Shown here piece after piece: positions 30,828-36,501 of a stretch of DNA of 42,403 nucleotides. Source of the stretch: Parvularia atlantis. Its lineage: Eukaryota > Opisthokonta > Rotosphaerida. Numbering within the stretch: position 1 is the first letter of the stretch; every line of letters starts with the position of its first letter. The stretch covers positions 1-42,403 of the forward strand of contig CALSCO010001185.1 of NCBI GenBank assembly GCA_943704415.1, written 5' to 3'. The notes beneath the pieces are model-generated. The model made no database searches and was not told where the DNA came from. It saw only the letters and a list, made by a program, of their open reading frames with translations. The position numbers and the translations under genes were made by a program.

Positions 30828-33800
30828 CTAGTCCGACTGCCAGCCGGACTCGTCCTCTTCGTCGGCCTCGGCCTCGCCGACGTTCTTGACGTAGCCCATC
30901 TGACGGCACACGTCAGGGCAGGCCGCCCGCACTGGTCACAGCAGGGGCGCACCTGCGCACGCAGGCCCGAGATTTGGTTGAACAGCTGGCTCATGTCGAA
31001 CGCCGACGGGCCGTTGTTGGTCGGCCGCGGGCGCGGCTCGACCGTGACCTGCGCCGTCGCGTCAGCACTGCGTGGCGGCCACTGGCAGCGCAGGCGCACC
31101 TTCTTCAGTCGGTCGCGCCCGCCGGTGCTGATGTCGCGCAGCAGGTCGTTGCGCGACCCGGCCGGCACCGCGGGCGACGTCGGCACACTCTCGGGCTCGT
31201 CATCGGCCGTCGGCACCGCGTACGCCCGCATCGACGCACTAGGTGCCCGCCCGCCCGCACCCGGCCCGGGTGGCGGTGGCGGCGGCGGCGGTGGCGGGGC
31301 GCCGGGTGCGCTGGTTACAGTAGCCGGCGCTGGTCCCGGCGGCGGAGGTGGCGGTGGCGGTGGCGGCGGTGGCGCGCCAGAGGCAGCGGGCTGCGGTGTC
31401 GGCGTGGGTGTCGGCGTGGGCGTGGGCGTGGGCGTGGGCGTGGGCGTCGCTGCCGGCGTGAAGAAGCCACTATGCGCAAACACGCAGCGATCAGGCCTGA
31501 CCGGTGCATCGGCGCGCCACGCACTTGGCCGCCGTTGTGCTCGGCTTACTGGCTGCCTTACTGGACACTGAACCGGCCTTGCTGCGCGCCTGCGAGCCGG
31601 CGGTGGCCGGCTTCGGCTGCGGGGGCGGCTGCTTGACGATCACGTCCTTGGCCACTGCGACCGTGGCACGCGTGAGCACACCGGCGATCCGCGAGCGACA
31701 CAGCAGCACCTGCGCGTGCCGAGTCGTCGTCGTCAGCCGAGTACGCCGCGAGCTTGGACACGGTGCGCTGGTCGGAAGACGTCACGGCCAGGCGCTCGAC
31801 CTCGTACGCGTTGCCGACCGACGAGCGCAGTTCCACACGCCCGTCCAACCGGTCCAGCTCAGCCTGTAGCGTGCAGGAGCGTCAGCGCATGGCGGACCGG
31901 ACAGCCGGCGCGCACCAGGCTCTCGTCCAGCGTTGACACGACGGCCTGCGCGTACAGGCGCCAGCACACGACGAACGAGCGCAGGATGATCTTCATCTCG
32001 AGCGCGCGGTTCGCGAAGAACAGCTGCGTAACGGCAGCGGCAGGTGAGGCGGCGCGCTGAGGGCCGCAGCTAGAGCGGGCGTACCTCGCATTCGGTTAGG
32101 AACTGGTCAAAGACGACGTCGAGGTTCTCGAGGTGCTGCTGGTACACCTGGTCAGCCGCGAGCTCGGCCGCGACGAGCTCGGCGAGCTGCGGGCGACGCA
32201 GTCAGAGCAGGGCGCGGCTGGGCTTAGGCCTGCCGCACCTCCTCCTCCAATAGCGGCTTGACGGTGCTGGCGTGCGCGCGCGCGATCTGGTACTGCTTGT
32301 GCGAGACAAAGTTTTGGCGCCACACCTCGAGCGGGCGGTACTGCGCGTGAGTTGCGTCAGCAGCGCGATTCGGGCACGCGTTGCGTGCACCTCATTGCTC
32401 TCGAAGGTGCGCACAAAGTGGTAGAACTCGGACACGCAGTTCATGTAGTCGCCCAGCGCGTCCGCGAACGACTCGTCGCGCAGGGCGATGTGCTGCAGGC
32501 GGACCTCAGCGGCGGAGCGGGACGCATCAGTTTGCGCACCTCCATGTTCCACGCCGCGAGGCGCTTCATGTCCATGTGCAGCTTGCCCATCGCGTCCATC
32601 AGCGTCTCGGATACACCGGGGGAGGCGACCTCCTCGAGCTTGCGCAGGGCCTCGAAGCGCACGCCGAGCTCGCCGGTGTAGTAGCTGTGTAGCGCGGGCG
32701 CAGGTATGAGGGACGCGAGGGGCAGCTGCTGCAGCAACGGCGTGCGCACTTTTTAGACATCTGCTCGTCGTTGAGGCGCATGCGCGTGCGGTCGAGGATC
32801 ATGAGGCTGCGCTTGAACTGCGCCAGGTACATCTTGACGGCGTTGATGAACAGCGGCTGGTCGATCGCGCTCAGGTCGTGCTTGAGCTCCGTCAGGCCGA
32901 TCTGGCGCAAGTATCTGCCGCGCGCATGCCCGTCAGCCGCGCGCCAGACGCCAGCACACGCGGGCGCACTTGGCCAGGCCCCACACGCCCTGGTTCGGCA
33001 CCTCGACCGCCATCGCCGCCTTCTGGGCCTTGAAGTCGGCCTGGATGACCTTGCTGGCGGCGTCTGCGCGCGCCGCAGTAAGCTGCTGCTACCACTGCCA
33101 GACGCACCGATGCGTCCGCACCGATCTTCTTCATGCCCTCCTGGAAGTCGGCGTTCGAGCGCGCCGAGAGGAAGTGGATGACGGCGTTGTGCGTGCCAAC
33201 GTGCGGGTTCTCGCGCACGCGGTTGAGCAGGCGCTGCAGCGCCTTCTGCCGCTTGAAGATGAAGCGCTGGTGCGAGGCGCGTGAGTGCCGCGTGGCAGGC
33301 GGGGGCGCGCACCTCCTCAAAGCGGCCAAACATCTGCTTGGGCGGCATCGGCGGCAGGAACACCCACGGCAGCTGCTTCTTGAGCTGCGGTGGAGGGCGC
33401 GTGAGACCGCATGTTGCTGGACGCCGCGAGAGAGCGCACCGTCTCGTGCAGCCACAGGAAGTAGCTGTAGCGCCGGCGCACGGCGATACCGGACGCTGCG
33501 CGCGCCGTCAGCCGCGCCTGCCGCGTTCAGCCGCGCCGCACCGTAGTCGGTGATCTGGTAGCTGATGTACTTGAACCAGTTGCCGCCCGTGACGGGGTTA
33601 TGCACGCGTAGGCTGCGCTCGGGCACAATCTCGTGCACCTGGCCCGTCGCGATCGCTCCGCGTCAGGCGCCGCGCGCCATCGACCTCGCGTCCGCTCGCC
33701 GCACCAGCCGCTCGGCCAGCGACGGCCCCTGCGGGCCCTGGTGCCGCTCCTTGACCTTTTCGTCGCGCTCGCGCACGACAGCGTACCAGCGCTGCAGCAG

Positions 33801-34344
33801 CACCTGCCCGCGCGGCGCTGGCGTTGCGCACGTCGCGCGTGAGACGCGCCCGCAGAGACAGCGAGGGAGACGCGACGCACACTCGGCTTCAAAGTCGGCC
33901 GCCTGCAGCGCGCGCTTGAGCTCCTCGTACGTCTGCGGGTCGGCGCTGACGGCCGCGAGGGCCACGGCGGCGGGCGCGGGCGCCGACGTGGGCGAGGCGG
34001 CGGGCGTGCTCGGCTTGGCAGGCCGCGCGGGCCCGAAGATCGCGCTCTCCTCGCTCGCGGACGCCTCGGCGCGCTGCGTCGACGCCGGTGGCTGCTGCCG
34101 TGCCGGTGCCGGTGCCGGTGCCGCTGCCGGTGCCGCTGCCGCTGCCGGTGCCGCTGAGCGGGTGTCACACGGTGCAAGCCGCTCAGCATGTGCGCGCGGT
34201 CAACGCACCCCGCGTCGTCGCTGACGCCGCCGCGCCGCCCCCGCCGACGACGCGCCCGGCCACCGCCGGCACGCTCTTGTCGACCGTCTGGACCTTGCGC
34301 AGGCGTGCGCCCGACTGGATCGAGGCCTGCAGCGCGCTGTTCAT
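30828..34344 (-). CDS. Sorting nexin-WASP fusion: WH2-PX-BAR-polyproline-WH2-CA
   Basis: Nineteen exons fit one 847-residue frame with every phase consistent. Residues 3-20 form a WH2 motif (LQASIQSGARLRKV). A Pro/Ala linker and helix follow. The PX domain (about 175-297) has WFKYISYQIT, the phosphoinositide motif RRRYSYF (213-219), FLPPMPPKQMFGRFEERF and LNRVRENPHVGTHNAVIHFL, closest in feel to SNX9/18/33. A helical BAR/Vps5-like region spans about 298-574 (YLRQIGLTELKHDLSAID, YYTGELGVRFEALRKLEEV, RPLEVWRQNFVSHKQYQIAR). Then come a Lys/Ser-rich linker, TP repeats and polyproline (about 673-750). A second WH2 is RNDLLRDISTGGRDRLKKV (775-793). A connector-like helix (MSQLFNQISGLRAQMGYV) and an acidic end EADEEDESGWQSD with the typical Trp complete a VCA. 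Inferred role: membrane-recruited Arp2/3 activation. Confidence 0.87.
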
Positions 34345-34502: not shown

Positions 34503-36289
<1,787 letters not shown>

Positions 36290-36501
36290 CTCGTGTGCTG
36301 CTGGCGGAGGGACGAAGAGTTGGGGGCGTGTGAAGCCGGGGTGAAAGTGGCGCCATGTGGCCGCGCGCACGTGGCCGGCGGTGCCCCTCGAGCTGCAGCT
36401 CATGTTTCGGGGCTGGGCCGCGAAACCCGAGCTGCCAGCCCGCCGTAGGGAAGGGCACAGTCAGGTCTCTTTTCCTTCTCTGTCCCGGACCGCGCACAGC
36501 C
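36290..36501. promoter_or_regulatory. Divergent promoter between SAHH and RPS11, with a pyrimidine tract
   Basis: 212 bp with no gene. Near the RPS11 side lies CTCTTTTCCTTCTCTGTC (about 36468-36485), 17 nt before the ATG. It resembles the 5' terminal oligopyrimidine tracts at ribosomal-protein transcription starts in other eukaryotes. The SAHH side has no recognisable element. Confidence 0.4.

Follow-up and report, generated by a model that had tools for sequence, protein, structure and literature searches.

A single gene of Parvularia atlantis appears to join a sorting-nexin-type PX domain to a WASP-type actin-regulatory tail

The sorting nexins SNX9, SNX18 and SNX33 link membranes to Arp2/3 by way of N-WASP. 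PXK/MONaKA consists of a PX domain, a kinase-like region and a WH2 motif. The order polyproline, WH2, connector, acidic region is found in WASP, WAVE, WASH, WHAMM and WAWH. The PDZ-BAR protein PICK1 has, to our knowledge, neither WH2 nor polyproline. A contact of this protein with Arp2/3, as an inhibitor, is described as proposed and later contested (PMC5487894). SNX9 has been described as assembling through its PX-BAR on curved PI(4,5)P2/PI(3)P membrane and oligomerizing N-WASP; in reconstitution it converts membrane signals to actin through N-WASP-WIP and Cdc42, whereas in earlier SNX9 assays with N-WASP alone Cdc42 was dispensable (PMC5674896). Two VCAs on one Arp2/3 are reported to potentiate nucleation greatly (PMC3762362). 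The nearest known kind of protein to the one described below is WAML (WASP and MIM like) of Entamoeba, a fusion of IMD and VCA (PMC3298513).

The gene studied here lies on a GC-rich contig (C297) of the 16.25 Mb, 616-contig genome of P. atlantis; the window is the whole stretch of this contig that was analysed, 42,403 nt. A tail of the actin- and Arp2/3-binding type that is usually carried by separate WASP proteins appears here to be joined to a PX module (Table 1). In comparison with SNX9, SNX18 and SNX33, which follow Vps5 among the closest PDB relatives of its PX domain, the fusion is without SH3 and bears its own WH2 motifs, polyproline and an acidic tail, and any BAR in it is unrecognizable by sequence; it also gives no match to BAR_3_WASP_bdg, whereas the SNX9 of the same genome matches that family at 97.6 bits. 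The fusion follows the order of the WASP-family VCA proteins, but its N-terminal part is a PX domain plus a helical region, and its connector is atypical. PX and WH2 occur in one chain in PXK/MONaKA as well, which differs by its kinase-like region and by having no acidic tail that we could see by eye. WAML shares with the fusion a membrane-deforming helical domain (a putative one in the fusion), polyproline, a C-terminal VCA (VCA-like in the fusion) and the lack of a CRIB, but has IMD and WAID where the fusion has PX and a BAR-like region, with one more WH2 at the N-terminus (PMC3298513). The terms 'PX domain' and 'sorting nexin' have zero occurrences in the main text of that paper. The initial annotation was aware of no described protein with such an order, and among the openly licensed literature matches listed nothing contradicted it: from titles and abstract openings, we recognized no PX-VCA protein there. 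Searches of a protein collection likewise gave no hit, and so no homologue of the same domain order (E up to 0.01 and up to 10), an absence of little weight because that collection presumably contains few spliced eukaryotic proteins.

Table 1. Features of the fusion gene and of its training-gene neighbour, in window coordinates.
Feature	Position	Strand	Basis or remark
Whole gene	30828..34344	-	hand splicing; same ends from SAHH-trained codon/splice DP
Exons 1-5	34344-34209, 34153-33881, 33817-33705, 33638-33542, 33495-33440	-	hand splicing
Exons 6-10	33384-33313, 33266-33122, 33063-32970, 32914-32750, 32684-32540	-	hand splicing
Exons 11-15	32504-32391, 32340-32239, 32186-32085, 32023-31916, 31863-31710	-	hand splicing
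Exons 16-19	31654-31525, 31469-31100, 31048-30953, 30899-30828	-	hand splicing
N-terminal WH2, residues 2-24	34273..34341	-	Pfam WH2 30.1 bits, cut-off 23.1
PX domain, Pfam residues 211-284, exons 5-7	33162..33484	-	Pfam E 9.7e-19
Helix-rich region, residues about 318-590	31816..33004	-	BAR assignment solely from position and composition
Linker exons 15 and 16 (31863-31710, 31654-31525)	31525..31863	-	join helical region to proline tract
TP repeat and two polyproline tracts	31265..31447	-	35 Pro, 11 Thr codons
Second WH2, residues about 771-792, exon 17 (Pfam to 795)	31100..31165	-	Pfam 23.9 bits
Connector-like helix, MSQLFNQISGLRAQ followed by MGYV, residues 811-828, interrupted by intron 18	30888..30994	-	sequence
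Acidic tail, KNVGEAEADEEDESGWQSD and stop, Trp four residues from end	30828..30887	-	sequence
S-adenosylhomocysteine hydrolase (SAHH)	34503-36460	-	short introns; DP training gene

Hand splicing of the minus strand gave 19 exons of consistent phase that encode 847 residues with a single stop at the end, in agreement with the initial annotation. All 18 introns are GT-AG and measure 35-66 nt; 16 end in CAG, and 15 begin with GTGCG, a donor that makes up 490 of the 4906 GT dinucleotides on both window strands. Intron 10, the one of 35 nt, ends in GAG, and a CAG situated 12 nt downstream is the more typical and more likely acceptor; with it, exon 11 would start at 32492 and the product would have 843 residues. 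With the neighbouring SAHH gene as its training set, a codon and splice DP over 34430-30700 returned one gene from 34344 to 30828 at each of seven intron penalties. Thirteen of the 18 hand introns were shared in every run; introns 1, 8, 10, 11 and 16 differed in the one setting for which details were compared, the DP taking the downstream CAG for intron 10. An amino-acid-neutral variant of the DP placed the gene ends identically at five of five penalties; 11 or 12 hand introns were shared, and introns 2 and 15 also differed from the hand model in some or all settings. The modelled frame had the best coding score in 17 of the 19 hand exons, the exceptions being the low-complexity exons 2 and 17. 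The gene is flanked by SAHH on the same strand (stop at 34503) and by a convergent NSUN5 on the opposite strand, both confirmed by Pfam. The gene model and most of its modules look solid.

The modules listed in the initial annotation (PX, two WH2 motifs, TP and PPP tracts, and a Trp-bearing acidic tail) were recovered, by Pfam for PX and WH2 and from the sequence for the rest. The PX domain scored 68.1 bits against a cut-off of 21.6, and its best PDB matches were Vps5 (6h7w), SNX33 (4akv) and SNX9 (3dyt and 2rai); the alignments with SNX33 (197-299) and SNX9 (197-298) were both longer than that with Vps5 (210-286). Compared with the PX domain of the genome's own SNX9, it scored 177, against a shuffle mean of 27 and with none of 500 shuffles equal to it. 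The N-terminal WH2 was also recovered by a six-frame genome search. The second WH2 is marginal, with 23.9 bits against the cut-off of 23.1 for the C-terminal piece alone and 21.1 bits, under the cut-off, in the genome search. WH2 matches genome-wide numbered ten at E up to 1, two of which belong to the fusion gene. The Pfam scan of the product gave no match to SH3, CRIB, WH1, WAHD or IMD.

A sceptical reading is that the model has joined on paper two neighbouring genes, one for a sorting nexin of PX and helical region and the other for a short protein of WH2 and acidic tail. Standard GTGCG donors had been claimed for both introns flanking exon 31654-31525, which holds for one (GTGCGT), whereas the other linking donor is GTGCTG. 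The DP failed to recover the linking intron before the proline exon (31524-31470), in the one setting of the SAHH-trained run that was compared in detail and in five of five amino-acid-neutral runs, and the latter also missed the linking intron 31709-31655 five times out of five; other introns bridged the link region and the repeat was placed in another frame. Nevertheless, the correctly trained DP yielded a single gene at every penalty (7/7 and 5/5), exons 15, 16 and 17 each have a single open frame on the strand, and both linker exons have their top coding score in the modelled frame. Within 31930-31040, the first ATG of the proline frame is at 31231, downstream of the tracts, which means that translation of the tracts requires an exon farther upstream. 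Four AATAAA-like hexamers were looked for in 34344-30700 and none is present, and the units of the TP and P runs vary at the third codon position of the Pro/Thr frame, as judged by sequence inspection and codon counts alone. We strongly infer from the sequence that the helical region and the proline/WH2/acidic tail belong to one gene, and we regard a pair of genes as very unlikely.

Given a single gene, the nature of its helical region and of its tail can each be read in another way. The region after the PX domain had been called BAR-like, and its helix-rich composition (5.1% Pro plus Gly over 273 residues) agrees with this, but no BAR family match does. With E allowed up to 10 and two alternative splicings included, Pfam matched the region to neither BAR nor Vps5 nor BAR_3_WASP_bdg, and the PDB gave no BAR-type match, again with the alternative splicings. 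Against the BAR of the genome's own SNX9, the local score was reached by 174 of 500 shuffles and the global score by 66 of 500; z values against the own BARs of C133, C589 and SNX9 were 0.49, −0.09 and 0.62, and with a three-sequence profile of own BARs the region ranked below 16 of 1000 shuffles. Control pairs of these BARs scored z 24 (C133-C589), 2.5 (SNX9-C133; 9/400 shuffles) and 0.66 (SNX9-C589; 96/400); the pairwise test misses the last of these pairs, and both it and the small profile are insensitive at such distance, though not blind altogether. The hydrophobic periodicity of the region is weak as well (z 1.4, versus 4.8 for the SNX9 BAR). These results would suit a different helical domain placed ahead of a tail that still regulates actin, a reading that we consider unlikely; the position straight after an SNX-type PX domain and the helix-rich make-up suit a BAR. 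As to the tail, the connector-like helix of the initial annotation has a hydrophobic ladder (M..LF..I..LR..M), with one Arg at atypical spacing and no R/K doublet. The C domain of the WASP family is described as three large hydrophobic residues followed by an R/K doublet or triplet and then one more hydrophobic (PMC3298513), a pattern that the predicted connector fits only in part. The same protein could thus end in a WH2/polyproline actin binder or filament elongator, or in an Arp2/3-binding inhibitor of the kind proposed, and contested, for PICK1, and would then not activate Arp2/3; the BAR protein MIM is described as having a WH2 without connector and acidic tail (PMC5487894). Yet the succession of WH2, Pro-rich spacer, amphipathic stretch, acidic stretch and near-terminal Trp is the WASP-family order, with the acidic tail ending in EAEADEEDESGWQSD, GWQSD being the last residues before the stop. 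The genome's own WASH carries IDMFSDLLNALKIRRKGISDK and ends in EWND (last exon by eye), its WH2 reaching only 17.4 bits, below the cut-off, and the two connectors resemble each other weakly, 41 of 2000 shuffles reaching their local score and 69 of 2000 their global one. When the last 55 residues were shuffled 20000 times, an acidic-Trp end arose in 165 cases, a hydrophobic ladder in 90 and both in 3, for patterns that were composed after the tail was seen. A tail without activating function seems to us rather unlikely. It is compatible with a region other than BAR, and our confidences in these two readings need not sum to one.

The initial annotation held that an SH3-mediated partnership was replaced by the fusion, and here the genome spoke against it. 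An SNX9 gene, hand-spliced to 524 residues, has SH3, PX and BAR_3_WASP_bdg in Pfam (nine of 13 donors GTGCG, introns of 46-66 nt); a WH1-CRIB WASP is encoded on C330, where the contig stops ahead of the VCA, and WASH is encoded on C156. The Arp2/3 subunits ARPC2 (C313) and ARPC3 (C94) are present as well. Because SNX9, WASP, WASH and Arp2/3 subunits are all in the genome, the fusion is an addition and not a replacement. The tenth intron of the SNX9 gene (C471:7565-7617) has an apparent GC-AG donor, GCACGC.

Other loci of the genome combine some of the same modules. C123, the one further contig on which matches to PX and to WH2 coincide, was considered as a second copy of the fusion and rejected, since by eye it looks PXK-like: about 2 kb separates a PX exon from a WH2 exon of the same strand (C123:26743-28942), and Pfam found no kinase in the single piece tested. 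At C411:1471-2970, a WH2 (42.5 bits) is followed by a connector-like NPMMSELASRMRR, with membrane-like hydrophobic segments upstream in the same frame, by eye; taken as a possible connector relative, NPMMSELASRMRR gave a local score reached by 324 of 2000 shuffles and a global score reached by 14 of 2000. At C73:10075-11231, neighbouring frames contain polyproline, a strong WH2 (42.4 bits) and a segment that looks like SH3 by eye but that Pfam did not confirm in the piece examined. At C235:3383-4184, an EH domain exon (34.6 bits) adjoins a PX exon, a layout that we take to resemble SNX8/Mvp1.

The analysis supports the initial annotation on the coupling, in one gene, of polyproline, WH2, connector-like and acidic modules with an SNX-type PX domain, and Arp2/3 subunits are encoded in the same genome. 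Judged from its sequence, the fusion is likely a new WASP-type variant and a putative membrane-recruited Arp2/3 activator. We propose that the PX domain would bind phosphoinositide and that the helical region, as a BAR, would dimerize the chain. Two C-terminal WH2-connector-acidic tails would thereby be held together on the membrane and could engage Arp2/3, while polyproline and WH2 would supply actin. The switch would consist of recruitment and dimerization and not of a GTPase, which is disfavoured because Pfam finds no CRIB, WH1 or WAHD in the product, and the protein would act alongside SNX9, WASP and WASH, not instead of them. The odds that this gene codes for a nucleation-promoting factor targeted to membranes, with an SNX-type PX, a VCA-like tail and dimerization through a predicted BAR, are in our estimate even. 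More tentative, and somewhat short of even, is the proposal of a new WASP-type subfamily in which PX-BAR dimer and VCA in one chain would make the VCA constitutively divalent, with phosphoinositide and curvature turning it on and neither Cdc42 nor an SH3 adaptor involved.

Should the helical region be a BAR, this protein would itself hold two VCAs on the membrane. A natural single-chain version of this kind would allow a direct test of whether membrane recruitment plus dimerization suffices for Arp2/3 activation. The fusion would mirror the pathway from SNX9 to N-WASP, as WAML mirrors the IMD proteins, and, if the proposal is true, one molecule might both find the membrane and start actin growth there.
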